Assembly: GCF_003692615.1 (NCBI RefSeq)
Contig: NZ_CP023540.1
Location: forward strand, 620,001 to 684,000
Source: Chryseobacterium sp. 6424
GTDB lineage: Bacteria > Bacteroidota > Bacteroidia > Flavobacteriales > Weeksellaceae
Direction of reading: 5' to 3'
DNA length: 64,000 bases
The translations under genes were made by a program, and so were the position numbers. Shown piece by piece: positions 24,756 to 38,482 of the stretch. Each line of letters opens with the position of its first letter. Position 1 is the stretch's first letter. The notes below the pieces were generated by a model. It was not told the origin of the DNA, did no database searches, and saw only the letters and a list, made by a program, of their open reading frames with translations.

Positions 24756-24868
24756 GGATTCCGGAGGAATCCTATCTGTGTAGAACAATGATCTGATATT
24801 TCCAGGCGCGCTCCGTAGGAGCGCTATCAATCAGCTATAGCAAGCAAAATAGCGTTCCTACGGAACGC
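24756..24868. repeat. REP-like palindromes, including an inverted pair (REPIN-like)
   Basis: Three short palindromes with 3-base loops: GGATTCC-GGA-GGAATCC at 24756-24772, GCGCTCC-GTA-GGAGCGC at 24808-24824, and GCGTTCC-TAC-GGAACGC at 24852-24868. The last two are in inverted orientation 27 bases apart, the layout of a REP doublet. The cores match the palindromes beside the RAYT gene at 37.2 kb. Confidence 0.7.
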
Positions 24869-24971
24869 CCTTATTTAACATCACAAGAAACTCTGCACCA
24901 CCTTGTCAAGGTTCCAAACTTTTACAAGGTTAGACAGGCAAGACCAAACTAAAAAAAACTACGAAAAAAAA

Positions 24972-25463
24972 TCAAAACCGATAACCCAAACTCAGCCCCG
25001 CGTCACCCAGTATCGGTAACAAAGCTTCCGGATGTATCAGATCTACACCCAAATCGCCGTATACATCTACCGAAAACCTGTCCCGGATCATGAATTTATA
25101 CCCAAGACCTGCCAAAATGCCCGCTTCCTCGTACATGCCTACACGGTGTCTCACGTTCGGGTCCGAAGGCGGAAAATATTCATCCCGATTATAGATCGCC
25201 GAAAGTTGCAGATACAGTTTACTGAAATTCTGTCTTTTCAGCGGATAATACCTTCCGAAACCTTTCAGGAACAGACGGTTTTGTGTGTCATCAGACAATT
25301 TTACTAATCCCGTTCCGGCATGTACACCGGCTGAAAAGTGGTGTGCAATCCTGTATTCGTAACTTACGTCAACTATTTTCAGCAAATTTATTTTCGCTTC
25401 ATTATTTTGCGCGATTATTGCAGAGGAGCAGAAGACAAAAAGGAAAGCGTAAATCTTCATCAT
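24972..25463 (-). CDS. Small outer-membrane-type beta-barrel protein, unknown function
   Basis: 163 aa with a signal peptide (FLFVFCSSAIIAQ). The mature part is a succession of amphipathic strands (VDVSYEYRIAHHFSAGVHAG, GLGYKFMIRDRFSVDVYGDLG) and ends in LGYRF, the terminal aromatic residue recognised by the outer-membrane assembly machinery. At this size an eight-strand barrel is likely. No named family is recognised. Its start faces the alpha/beta hydrolase gene 34 bases away, so the two share a short divergent promoter region. Confidence 0.75.
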   Translation of the reverse strand: MMKIYAFLFVFCSSAIIAQNNEAKINLLKIVDVSYEYRIAHHFSAGVHAGTGLVKLSDDTQNRLFLKGFGRYYPLKRQNFSKLYLQLSAIYNRDEYFPPSDPNVRHRVGMYEEAGILAGLGYKFMIRDRFSVDVYGDLGVDLIHPEALLPILGDAGLSLGYRF

Positions 25464-34452: not shown

Positions 34453-36798
34453 ATGAATGCTCCACAAGCAATTATTGAAACAATTCAATTAAAAGATGGG
34501 CGAGAAATCACCATCGAAACAGGGAAGCTGGCAAAACAGGCCAACGGATCTGTAGTAGTGACAATGGGCGGCACGATGCTTCTGGCAACCGTGGTAGCCA
34601 ACAAAGAGGCCAATCCCGGGGTAGATTTCCTGCCACTGACCGTAGATTACAGAGAGAAATTCTATTCCGGAGGTAAGATCCCCGGAAACTTTTTCAGAAG
34701 AGAGGCAAGACCATCTGATGAGGAAATCCTTACGATGAGATTGGTAGACCGCGTATTGCGCCCACTTTTCCCGGAGGACTTCCATGCAGAGGTGCAGGTG
34801 ATGATTTCCCTGATCTCTTATGACAAAGAAGTGATGCCCGAAGCACTGGCTGGTTTAGCCGCTTCAGCAGCGATCGCGATTACCGATATCCCTTTCAACG
34901 GCCCAATGTCTGAGGTTACTGTCGCCAGAATCGACGGACAGTTGGTGGTAAACCCAAGCAGAGAAAATTTAGACAGAGCAGATCTTAATATCCTTGTAGG
35001 TGCTACCAAAGACTCTATCGTAATGGTAGAAGGTGTGATGGACGAGATCACAGAAGAGGAAATGATCGAAGCCATTAAATTCGCTCACGAAGAGATTAAA
35101 GTTCAAGTTGAAGCTCAGGAAAGACTTGCGGAAAGAGTAGGCAAATCTTTACCGAAAAGAGAATACAGCCACGAAACACACGACGAAGAGATTCGTGATA
35201 AAGTGTGGAAAGAAACTTTCGATAAAGTATATCAGGTTGCGAAAACACCTTCAGCAAAAGAAGAAAGACACGAAAACTTCAAGGCAGTTCTTGAGGAATT
35301 TTTAGCTCAATATTCAGAAGAAGAATTAGAGACAGTGAAGCCATTCGCAAAAATCTACTTTCACGATGTGGAGAAAGAAGCGATGCGCCAGATGATTCTA
35401 AACGACAAAATCCGTTTGGATGGCCGTTCACCGGAAACCATCCGTCCGATCTGGTCAGAGATCGATTATTTGCCGGGTGCTCACGGTTCGGCGGTATTTA
35501 CCAGAGGGGAAACTCAGTCTTTAACAGCCGTAACTTTAGGTTCTGTTAAAGATGCCAACATGGTAGATTCAGTAGCCATCAATTACGACGAGAAATTTTT
35601 CCTTCACTATAATTTCCCGCCATTCTCCACAGGTGAGGCTAGACCTTTAAGAGGAACCTCAAGAAGAGAAGTTGGTCACGGAAACCTGGCGCAGCGTGCG
35701 CTTTCAAGAATTATTCCTGCAGAAAACCCTTATACCATCCGTATCGTTTCAGATATCCTGGAATCCAACGGTTCATCTTCAATGGCAACGGTTTGCGCCG
35801 GAACATTGGCTTTGATGGACGCAGGTGTACAGATTACGAAACCGGTGTCAGGTATCGCCATGGGATTGGTAACTGACCCGGAATCAGGTAAATTCACCGT
35901 ACTTTCAGATATTTTAGGAGACGAAGATCACCTGGGTGATATGGACTTTAAAGTAACCGGCACGGCAGACGGAATCACGGCTTGCCAGATGGACATCAAA
36001 ATCCAGGGACTTTCTATGGACATCATGGAAACTGCATTGAAACAAGCGAGAGAAGGCCGTCTTCATATCCTTGGTGAAATGTTAAAAACAATCGATGCGC
36101 CTCGCACTGATGTGAAATCACACGCTCCGAAAATGGAAGTACTGGAGATTCCTAAGGAATTCATCGGTGCAGTGATCGGGCCTGGCGGAAAGATCATTCA
36201 GCAGATGCAGAAAGATTTTGATACCGTTATCGCCATCGAAGAAATCGGCGAGATCGGTAGAATTGAGATTTCTGGCGTGAGCAGAGAGAACATCAATGCG
36301 ACCATCGCTGCCATCAACGAAATTACTTTTGTACCTGTGATCGGAGAAGTTTACAACGGTAAAGTGGTGAAAGTAATGGATTTCGGTGCGTTCGTAGCGA
36401 TTGCGAAAGGTACTGAAGGTCTTCTTCACATCTCCGAAATCGAGTGGGCAAGACTTGACAAAGTTCCTTACAAAGAAGGCGACATGGTGGAAGTGAAATT
36501 CATGGGTTACGATGACCGTAAGAAGATGAAACTCTCAAGAAAAGTTTTGTTGGAAAGACCTCCAAGACCGGAACGTAAAGAAGGTGAAGGCGATCAGCGC
36601 GAAAACCGCGGCCCAAGAAACGACAGAAGAGATGACCGCAGAGACGGTGGCGATAGAAGACACGGCGGCAACCACCGCGGTGGCAACGACAGACCGCAGC
36701 ACAGTGGCCGCCAAACCGAGAAACCAGCGGGCGAAGACACCTTCAAGCCACTGAACGAAAGCGAAAATACAGATGATGTGAAGCCGGAAGGATTTTAA
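34453..36798 (+). CDS. pnp: Polyribonucleotide nucleotidyltransferase (PNPase)
   Basis: Phosphorolytic 3'-5' exoribonuclease that forms a trimer in the cytoplasm. The 781-aa protein has RNase PH domain 1 (about 10-145), the linking helical domain, RNase PH domain 2 (about 315-545, with [11 protein letters not shown]), a KH domain (about 560-620, [12 protein letters not shown]) and an S1 domain (about 625-695). The tail from about residue 705 is unusual: a disordered stretch rich in Arg, Asp, Gly and Asn, with alternating basic and acidic clusters. Such tails are found in flavobacterial PNPases and may bind RNA. Confidence 0.97.
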
Positions 36799-36820
36799 TT
36801 CTGAATGTATATAAATACGG

Positions 36821-36848
36821 AACCACCTCGATTTGGGGTGGTTTTTTT
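36821..36848 (+). terminator. Terminator of pnp
   Basis: Stem AACCACC / GGTGGTT (36821-36827 and 36837-36843) followed by seven T. Confidence 0.9.
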
Positions 36849-36862
36849 GTGTCCCTCAACCG

Positions 36863-36910
36863 CGAATCCGAACACGAATCCGAACACGAAATCGAACACG
36901 AATCCCGGAA
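36863..36910. repeat. 12-bp tandem repeat
   Basis: About three and a half head-to-tail copies of CGAATCCGAACA, the third with one change. It lies between the pnp terminator and the REP cluster. Non-coding. Confidence 0.8.
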
Positions 36911-36960
36911 CCCGAATTCGAACCCGTAACCCCGAATTGCATTCGAGGCTATGCACATTC

Positions 36961-37211
36961 GACTCCTTCGGAGTCACGACATGCCGTCAGTCACGCACCC
37001 TCCCCGAACTCCGTAGGAGTTCACTTCGCATAACCCCGCACAAGCGAAGCGCCGTGCGGGTACTACGCGCCCACGTGCGGCCGGACTCCCACTCACACCA
37101 ACCCCGACTCCATAGGAGTCGAACCTGCATATCCTCGAACGCAGTTCGGGGGTTTAGCGCCCCACGTGCCCGCACTCCAACATCTGACCCACTCCGACTC
37201 CGTAGGAGTCG
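36961..37211. repeat. Cluster of REP-like palindromes beside the RAYT gene
   Basis: Four palindromes share the core GACTCC-N3-GGAGTC: 36961-36975 (loop TTC), 37006-37022 (GAACTCC-GTA-GGAGTTC), 37105-37121 (loop ATA) and 37195-37211 (CGACTCCGTAGGAGTCG). Copies 3 and 4 continue as AACCTGCA and AACATGCA. Between them lie further hairpins: CTTCGC / GCGAAG (37024, 37044), CCCGCAC / GTGCGGG (37035, 37054) and CGAAC / GTTCG (37136, 37144). The last palindrome ends nine bases before the stop of the RAYT gene. The stretch is GC-rich and non-coding. Confidence 0.8.
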
Positions 37212-37220
37212 AACATGCAA

Positions 37221-37673
37221 TCAGCTATCCACCCAAAACCATTTGATGTCATCCTCGATTTCCGCTTCCTTCCACAAACGGTGAATTTCTTCCTGGAAAG
37301 TTTCGTTTCGGTGGTGAGCCTGTTGATTTTTGATGTAGTTGATCAGCATATCCTTCTCCCGGATGGAGTAGCTGAACGCACAATACTTAATGCCCCAACC
37401 GATAAAATCGGGGAAAAGTCCGGACTGTTTCATCCATTTTGAAGAAGCTACTTTAATATCTTTCACCAAACCCGCCAAGGCGACAGACGGATGCAGGTCA
37501 AACAGAATATGCACGTGTTCTTCCATCCCGTTGATGCGGTACAGAAGGCAATTTTTGTTTTTTAGAATACCCCAGATGTAGCGGTATAGTTCCGGCGCGT
37601 GAGCAAGCGGAATTGTTTTTCCGCTTGATTTGGTGCGGAAAACGAGGTGATACAGAATTCGGGTGTAGGCCAT
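37221..37673 (-). mobile_element. REP-associated tyrosine transposase (RAYT, IS200/IS605-like Y1 HUH nuclease)
   Basis: 150-aa single-strand DNA nuclease of the Y1 transposase superfamily. It has the HUH motif HVHILFDLHP (His-hydrophobic-His) at about residues 51-60 and the conserved MEEHVH lead-in; the probable catalytic Tyr is in MLINYIKNQQAHHRNETF near 115. The family opening YTRILYHLVFRTK fixes the start at the ATG at 37671-37673; the frame stays open upstream, but only through a repeat array. No flanking IS ends or TnpB gene are visible, whereas a cluster of REP-like palindromes lies directly at the 3' side. This combination is that of a domesticated RAYT. Confidence 0.88.
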
Positions 37674-37741
37674 GGTGAAATCTTTAGGTTGTCCGGTTAT
37701 CGTCACTGAAAGATGCGAGCAATTCTTTTCTTTTACTTTCA

Positions 37742-37776
37742 TCTTGGCTCTCGACTCTCGGCTCTTGGCTCTTCTC
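37742..37776. repeat. Heptamer tandem array (TCTTGGC family)
   Basis: Five consecutive 7-nt units: TCTTGGC, TCTCGAC, TCTCGGC, TCTTGGC, TCTTCTC. Same unit type as the rRNA spacer elements, in inverted orientation compared with the array at 41684. It lies between the RAYT start and the 3' end of the next gene. Confidence 0.75.
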
Positions 37777-38482
37777 ACAAAAGATTGCCCTTCCTTTTTA
37801 CGATAATACCCAGTTTCTCCAATGTCTGGTCGTCGGGGAAAAGCACCTTGGCAAAAGCTACGAGTTGCGTATATTTTGGGTACAGCGAATCCAGTGCGGC
37901 ATCCCGGATATCCGTCGCTTTCTGCGCTTCGCCGAATTCTTTTTTCTGAGATTCCTTCAGGGAAGAAACTTCCTGCAGCGCCGTTTGCTGCGCGCTGATT
38001 GCGGCATCGTCAATATTCACCGAGGCGGCCTTTGTTTTAAAATCTGGATTAGCTAAAATTTGAGAATAAAAATTATTTACCTGCTGGTACCACGCCGCAT
38101 ACGCCTGCTTACGCCCATCATCAATTCCCAGCGTGGTGTTGGCCTGTCGGTCGCCCTTAAAGATGATTTTTGCCAGATTGCGGTGGCGGGTATAGGTAGC
38201 GTTAATCGCCTCTTTCTTTTGGTTAAATATATCAGTCGCAGCATACTGCTCGCCATATTCCTGGATTTGTCGCTGGTTAAGTTGTTCCAGATTGGTAATT
38301 TCTGTAAGGTAACTATCCAGTTGCGTTTCAGTGATGCCTACAGTGGCCAACCCGGCAAATATTTCAGGCTGCTTGGCATTGGTGAATGCGACTTTCATTT
38401 TTGCGATCAGCTGTTCTGCGGAAACATATTGGTTTCTCGGAGATTTACCGCTTTTCGGATTTTTATTTTCAGGATTTTCCAT
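37775..38482 (-). CDS. Helical cytoplasmic protein with an internal duplication, unknown function
   Basis: 235 aa, no signal peptide or membrane segment, Lys- and Gln-rich, predicted almost wholly helical. Two halves resemble each other: about residues 62-120 (EQLNQRQIQEYGEQYAATD ... AKIIFKGDRQA ... LGI) and 166-225 (SLKESQKKEFGEAQKATD ... AKVLFPDDQTL ... LGI). Each half has a helix, an E-Y/F-G-E-x-x-x-A-T-D motif, then a helix ending in A-K-x-x-F. The fold might be a four-helix bundle repeated twice. I know no named family. It lies between the repeat arrays, transcribed toward the RAYT. Confidence 0.78.
   Translation of the reverse strand: MENPENKNPKSGKSPRNQYVSAEQLIAKMKVAFTNAKQPEIFAGLATVGITETQLDSYLTEITNLEQLNQRQIQEYGEQYAATDIFNQKKEAINATYTRHRNLAKIIFKGDRQANTTLGIDDGRKQAYAAWYQQVNNFYSQILANPDFKTKAASVNIDDAAISAQQTALQEVSSLKESQKKEFGEAQKATDIRDAALDSLYPKYTQLVAFAKVLFPDDQTLEKLGIIVKRKGNLL

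Follow-up and report, generated by a model that had tools for sequence, protein, structure and literature searches.

A gene for a small Y1 HUH protein and the array of palindromes at its 3′ side, found in Chryseobacterium sp. 6424, probably form a REPtron-like module, i.e., a domesticated endonuclease from the IS200 side (class 1) of the Y1 HUH proteins together with its cognate double-hairpin DNA elements. The locus lies in a window of 64,000 bp (the whole stretch of DNA analyzed), which corresponds to positions 620001–684000 of one 2,586,303-base contig of this Kaistella-group bacterium (genome label G000:C1). The original prediction had described it as a gene for a RAYT (REP-associated tyrosine transposase) next to the repetitive extragenic palindromic (REP) sequences that such proteins spread; its observation was partly confirmed and its interpretation partly supported. 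In its layout, with cognate palindromes next to a Y1 HUH gene, the locus is REPtron-like, but by the criteria tested the protein is not a RAYT in the strict sense. At the family level, palindromes beside these genes occur far above chance, often with a fixed architecture and in largely inverted flanks, and are matched to the protein clade; the genes stay at fixed loci and have a low ratio of nonsynonymous to synonymous substitution rates (dN/dS). Low-copy intergenic dispersal was found for sibling families of the palindromes, but not for the window palindrome in its source genome. The main features of the locus are as follows.

37221–37673, minus strand: Y1 HUH protein of 150 aa, TnpA-Y1 subclass-1.2-like, with H53-x-H55, W93 and Y113-xx-N116-Q117-xx-H120-H121.
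37195–37211, plus strand: palindrome A nearest the 3′ end of the gene, CGACTCC-GTA-GGAGTCG; 9 nt separate it from the stop codon, and it has no B partner (A half at 37195–37219 by cmsearch).
37105–37151, plus strand: complete double-hairpin unit, A at 37105–37121, linker at 37122–37132, B at 37133–37151 (55.8 bits; folding z −4.1).
37006–37061, plus strand: double-hairpin unit, A at 37006–37022 (GAACTCC-GTA-GGAGTTC), B with an enlarged loop (33.8 bits; z −5.6).
36930–36976, minus strand: distal inverted double-hairpin unit, A with a GAA loop, B of CCTCGAAT-GCA-ATTCGGGG (65.9 bits; z −3.1).

The distance of nine bases between the gene and the last palindrome was confirmed. The four palindromes had been said to share GACTCC-N3-GGAGTC; only three of them do, the one at 37006–37022 being different, and CTCC-N3-GGAG is common to all four. 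The distal palindrome (36960) is in the opposite orientation to the rest. These palindromes turned out to be parts of a double hairpin in which hairpin A (7 bp, 3-nt loop) is joined to hairpin B (8 bp) by an 11-nt linker, and the "other hairpins" noticed between the palindromes are mostly the B halves of this composite unit (cmsearch). The A loop is GTA, ATA or GAA at the window locus and mostly GAA in relatives; the linker, AACCTGCATAT at the window locus, approximates AANNTGAATAR in the family. The flank AAC(A/C)TGCA, predicted to be conserved, follows two of the four palindromes (at 37122 and 37212) and is not conserved at all four. As single-stranded DNA, the four units or half-unit out-fold all 200 of their shuffles each (z −3.1 to −5.6).

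The motif CTCC-N3-GGAG occurs five times in the window, four of them within the array, against 0.43 expected, and none of 100 dinucleotide-preserving shuffles reached five. Its genome-wide excess, also anticipated, exists (23 versus 10), but four of the occurrences are at the window array and five around a second Y1 gene. The longer ACTCC-N3-GGAGT gave five occurrences versus none in the reversed control, and all three occurrences of GACTCC-N3-GGAGTC in the genome belong to the window array. A DNA search of the genome with the array returned, apart from the array, a single match of 17 nt (E 4.6).

The protein was recognized correctly as a Y1 HUH protein of 150 aa: the product of the open reading frame (ORF) at 37221–37673 matches Pfam Y1_Tnp (E 7e-21), and its catalytic residues, H53/H55 and Tyr113, are invariant in 47 of 47 sequences. 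Y113, N116, Q117, H120 and H121 are invariant in all 15 aligned sequences, so the Y---Q--HH signature of subclass 1.2 is present. RAYT and TnpA-REP proteins carry the motif NP(L/V)(R/K)xG after the catalytic tyrosine (PMC2817692); the window protein has YIKNQxxHH instead, with N116 and Q117 where RAYTs have NP. The GT(A/G)G typical of the 5′ foot of RAYT-associated palindromes is absent from the window units and from the clade-1 relatives inspected, and the invariant GTAG of the clade-0 units described below sits in the linker 3′ of the first hairpin, not at the stem foot. The AlphaFold2 model (mean pLDDT, the predicted local distance difference test score, 93.3) has a helix at 126–136 following the core, and its closest solved structures are TnpA proteins of IS200/IS605 insertion sequences (ISs), namely ISDra2 and IS608; a REP transposase, 4er8, is also among the fold matches. 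The score against the NCBIfam IS200 profile NF033573 (52.3 bits) is slightly below the curated cut-off of 55. Three Y1 genes of the source genome exceed the Pfam cut-off; all belong to different clades, none are identical copies, and the other two proteins are 35 and 33% identical to the window protein. These features fit membership in subclass 1.2, as judged by motif and profile and not by the profile of PMC6006769 itself.

Relatives of the protein are widespread, and a protein-level search gave 1072 matches at E≤0.001. Within the genus, 72 matches were found in 29 of 36 genomes; across the phylum, a relative at E≤1e-30 is present in 64 of 148 genomes and 45 of 83 genera. Twenty plasmid records match, every one with less than 60% identity (two cover at least 80% of the query), and among phages there is one distant match only (29% identity). 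Such sparse and distant matches suggest that carriage on plasmids or phages is not the main story. In a tree of 37 sequences, E. coli RayT falls on a very long, weakly supported branch and the IS sequences form no outgroup; its topology was therefore not used.

To characterize the flanks we used 88 loci: 83 (gene of at least 400 nt) for loop orientation, 81 (400–500 nt) for synteny and, for the non-redundant count, 80 in 39 clusters, of which 38 had enough flank (L117, which grouped with IS TnpA in the tree, was excluded). In total, 115 palindromes were found in the 38 loci, against 6.3 ± 2.2 in dinucleotide-preserving shuffles; 32 loci have them on at least one side and 17 on both (0.27 in shuffles). 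Chance or simple base composition as the source of the palindromes was ruled out by the shuffles. Nineteen loci have palindromes both upstream and downstream of the gene within 300 nt; in these, the 6-nt upstream and downstream arms of one gene match, the mean mismatch being 1.16 within a locus versus 3.42 when clades are compared (permutation test, 0 of 5000). The stems differ from one protein clade to another: clade 0 has, for example, GCGTTCC-GTA-GGAACGC, and clade 3 AACGGGC-TTTA-GCCCGTT. Upstream loops are mainly GAA (24) and GTA (11; together 35 of 74, redundant loci included), and downstream ones TTC (25) and TAC (21; 46 of 91), with GAA (13) and GTA (6) making up the opposite sense (19 of 91); thus, the flanks are largely inverted.

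Similar results were obtained for 29 further loci, the best matches of genomes sampled across the phylum: 66 palindromes (shuffles, 5.7; far flanks, 13.4), with at least one side occupied in 22 of 29. The A-B rule, applied to flanks of up to 1 kb, gave 56 matches in 19 loci versus 0.45 in mononucleotide shuffles, some units being counted on both strands, alike in data and shuffles. The spacing from A loop to B loop is most often 26 nt, a value seen in 17 pairs when reading toward the gene and in none from sequences with shuffled two-base blocks. An alignment of 21 A-B units in one orientation contains 78 double-change cells in the stems; pairing was itself a criterion in choosing the units, which makes this compensation partly circular. 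The linker consensus played no part in the choice.

It should be mentioned that a second subclass-1.2 gene in the source genome (L042, G000:C1:1147200–1149800) lies between hsdS-like and hsdM-like genes and has GCTCC-GTA-GGAGC palindromes on both sides. A different palindrome, built around CCTTGTCAAGG, was seen approximately 60–90 nt upstream of the Y1 gene in L025 and L051.

We next consider dispersal of the units; all counts are lower bounds, as at most 150 (A-B model R1) and 135 (clade-0 unit) candidates per genome were scored. Across the 36 genomes, R1 gave at least 108 matches at E≤0.1 and at least 45 at E≤1e-6; 22 of the latter lie over 1.5 kb away from a Y1 gene. At the latter threshold, dispersed A-B units are present in 7 of 10 genomes with a cognate clade-1 gene and in 4 of 26 without one (P 0.003). 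All 15 dispersed units inspected (14 of the 22 and one weaker) are located between main ORFs, two of them overlapping short ORFs of 80–85 aa only, and several occupy, by eye, the same site in different species.

The sibling clade-0 unit consists of two A hairpins (A1-A2) spaced by ~51 nt; the stretch between them contains ATCT and GTAG, both invariant. At least 158 matches were found at E≤0.01 in the genus genomes, with 0–25 detected units per genome; of the 150 matches listed, 111 (in 23 genomes) have no subclass-1.2 gene within 1.5 kb. The source genome contains seven matches; among the six listed, three accompany the Y1 gene at 449526, one accompanies that at 1148214, and the remaining two lie away from these genes, at 644756 and 1725739. 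The copy at 644756 is in the window.

24756–24912: gene-free inverted pair of A1-A2 sibling units, belonging to the same family as those beside the Y1 gene at 449526 of the genome, one at 24756–24830 on the plus strand (71.6 bits) and a weaker one at 24846–24912 on the minus strand (31.2 bits).

The pair falls between an ORF that we take to encode an M13-like peptidase and the ORF 24972–25463 (minus strand). Palindromes of the CCTTGTCAAGG type were also noticed on both sides of it (window positions ~24740 and ~24900). A strict inverted-pair (REPIN) layout of the dispersed sibling units was considered and rejected: neighbors were +− in 11 cases, −+ in 8, −− in 12 and ++ in 2, with 60 singletons.

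Several observations weigh against a module in which the protein acts on these palindromes. At the window locus they flank the gene on the 3′ side only, with none upstream, and all four R1 matches (E≤0.1) in the source genome are local, so that the spreading of the window palindrome implied by the original prediction found no support. The prediction also tied the abundance of the palindromes to the presence of the gene; the dispersed A-B units do follow the cognate clade, but the clade-0 unit persists in three of seven genomes where no subclass-1.2 gene was found and reaches its maximum (25) in G011, a genome without a cognate clade-0 gene. Dispersed clade-0 units show no clear inverted-pair rule, and only 24 of 39 local ones are oriented toward the gene. 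Palindromes are lacking at 6 of the 38 non-redundant and 7 of the 29 phylum loci, some palindrome-free genes are also syntenic (the L066 group), and no more than three of the phylum loci have the A-B architecture. Finally, some of the units from which R1 was built are local ones of the same genomes, and, of the clade-presence tests (P 0.007 and 2e-5), that for R1 includes local units, some of them used for training (the comparison of 7/10 with 4/26 is of dispersed units only); since the genomes are related, these P values and that of 0.003 overstate independence.

Orthologues of the gene keep the same neighbors on both sides, and, among the loci listed, Chryseobacterium sp. Leaf201 (L028) has both neighbors in common with the Kaistella loci L053–L057. 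Insertion sites lie between the two halves of MetH, trp genes, enoyl-CoA hydratase and thiolase, and hsdS/hsdM-like genes (Pfam), operon names that are our own reading. Medians of dN/dS over eight syntenic groups are 0.051–0.155; in two groups dS is saturated for some pairs, and an internal stop is present in one member of one group. In the window, the Y1 gene converges with the gene at 34453–36798, which from its sequence we take to be pnp-like, and is followed on the other side by a PQLLE-family gene at 37775–38482 (NF052641). The site 3′ of pnp could be read in 30 of the 36 genus genomes: it holds the Y1 gene in three, and PQLLE follows pnp without a Y1 match in seven. The window locus and that of K. 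pullorum have only the pnp side in common, which implies that the other boundary has changed since. The palindrome array is placed between the Y1 stop codon and the following hairpin.

36819–36845, plus strand: hairpin resembling an intrinsic terminator, located 3′ of the pnp-like gene and not part of the array (terminator scan).

Similar hairpins are located 3′ of pnp also in genomes without the Y1 insert.

Other readings of the locus were weighed against these data. An ordinary IS200/IS605-type insertion sequence, with the palindromes as its subterminal hairpins, would agree with the nearest solved structures, with the filled and empty states of the pnp site and with the hairpins on both sides of many relatives; the profile score below the IS200 cut-off, the three divergent Y1 genes, synteny that extends even between Chryseobacterium and Kaistella and a dN/dS of 0.05–0.16, both unlike an active IS, and the lack of an upstream palindrome make it unlikely. 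Effects of REPs at the RNA level are known, many of the Y1 genes lie between co-directional genes, and the hairpins would form in RNA too, so the palindromes might be terminators, attenuators or mRNA-stability hairpins of nearby operons unrelated to the protein. Yet the terminator scan picked the hairpin after pnp and no A or B hairpin, no Rfam family matched positions 36700–38000, and this explanation does not account for matched arms on both sides, clade-specific stems, fixed spacing and units at unrelated intergenic sites; we regard it as quite improbable.

The reading as a canonical class-2 RAYT (TnpA-REP) accompanied by ordinary REPs is suggested by the same layout of gene and palindromes, by the automatic label "REP element-mobilizing transposase RayT" carried by relatives, by matches of 8 of the 15 members of the protein alignment to NCBIfam REP_Tyr_transpos (best 1.6e-6) and by 4er8 among the fold matches. 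It is contradicted by the tyrosine motif and appears very unlikely.

For the REPtron-like module, a mechanism can be proposed by analogy. In Y1 HUH enzymes such as those of IS608 and E. coli TnpA-REP, a dimer reads a folded single-strand hairpin, nicks the DNA by its tyrosine and rejoins another end. The hairpins described here would fold once the DNA becomes single-stranded and may be bound by the TnpA dimer; Tyr113 would then nick the conserved linker next to the stem and rejoin the DNA to another end, these linkers being the obvious candidates for a guide or cut site. Binding, cleavage and mobility of the hairpins are inferred. Units might occasionally be copied or moved locally and, rarely, in trans to a new intergenic site; repeated local action would produce tandem and inverted arrays, and rare action in trans the intergenic copies. 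The gene itself would rarely move and would be kept by the host for a benefit, as its retention by selection implies.

Comparison with known systems revealed that: (i) like the members of TnpA-Y1 subclass 1.2 (Quentin et al., 2018; PMC6006769), the window protein has Y---Q--HH, about 150 aa and few divergent copies per genome, and comes from Bacteroidetes; a table in that paper gives "no" under REP for this subclass, and its text describes the subclass as generally devoid of typical terminal IS200 structures, an absence that was reported for the subclass and does not define it, whereas palindromes flank 32 of the 38 members examined here; (ii) the system resembles, in what these papers describe, REPtrons (RAYT/TnpA-REP with REP, BIME or REPIN elements; PMC2817692, PMC8266576, PMC8049555) in having a domesticated Y1 gene, retained vertically, whose cognate palindromes are in part dispersed between genes, and in stems that track the protein clade, but differs from them in its IS200-side protein, in lacking the NP motif and the GT(A/G)G head, in units of A-linker-B or ~51-nt A1-A2 type, and in a detected copy number of 0–25 per genome instead of the usual >100 copies (PMC2817692); (iii) unlike IS608 and ISDra2, it has divergent low-copy genes, synteny, low dN/dS and several hairpins per side; (iv) as in TIRtrons, as far as described in PMC3733652, a Y1 gene has flanking inverted repeats, possibly palindromic; GGGGWSAS is the motif of TIRtrons/TIRYT, which differ in that, according to PMC6006769, 20 of 26 TIRYTs belong to subclass 2.1 and all have a helix-turn-helix-type domain. 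The "RayT" beside abeS in Chryseobacterium (PMC11194056) resembles the window system in the related bacterial group and the same automatic name; the whole words "REP" and "palindrom" have no matches in the main text of that paper.

The finding that many subclass-1.2 genes have flanking palindromes with stems specific to the protein clade is new for the collections and papers covered, related genomes being non-independent samples; in the literature searched, no description of REPs with subclass 1.2 came up. The separate lineage in Bacteroidota envisaged by the original prediction is supported. Tentatively, it can be hypothesized that association with REPs arose also outside the RAYT clade, and that subclass 1.2 is a second, IS200-side lineage co-evolving with its own low-copy double-hairpin REPs across Bacteroidota and retained for a host function tied to the processing of single-stranded hairpins. 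If so, REP-like systems would extend beyond the RAYT clade into a branch of proteins scored as having none, and the low copy number, the matching of stem to protein and the several sibling families per genome would make the host function that keeps domesticated Y1 nucleases directly testable.

Some minor observations were made during this work. Dense palindrome arrays with repeats of ~500 bp were noticed at the ends of contig C17 of G011 (L121, L122), where no subclass-1.2 match was found. The subclass-1.2 gene of L026 and L027 adjoins an ORF that is presumably mcrC-like. In two genomes without the insert (L138 and L144), tandem GGCAAGAATGTTACTTACGGT-like repeats are located 3′ of pnp.
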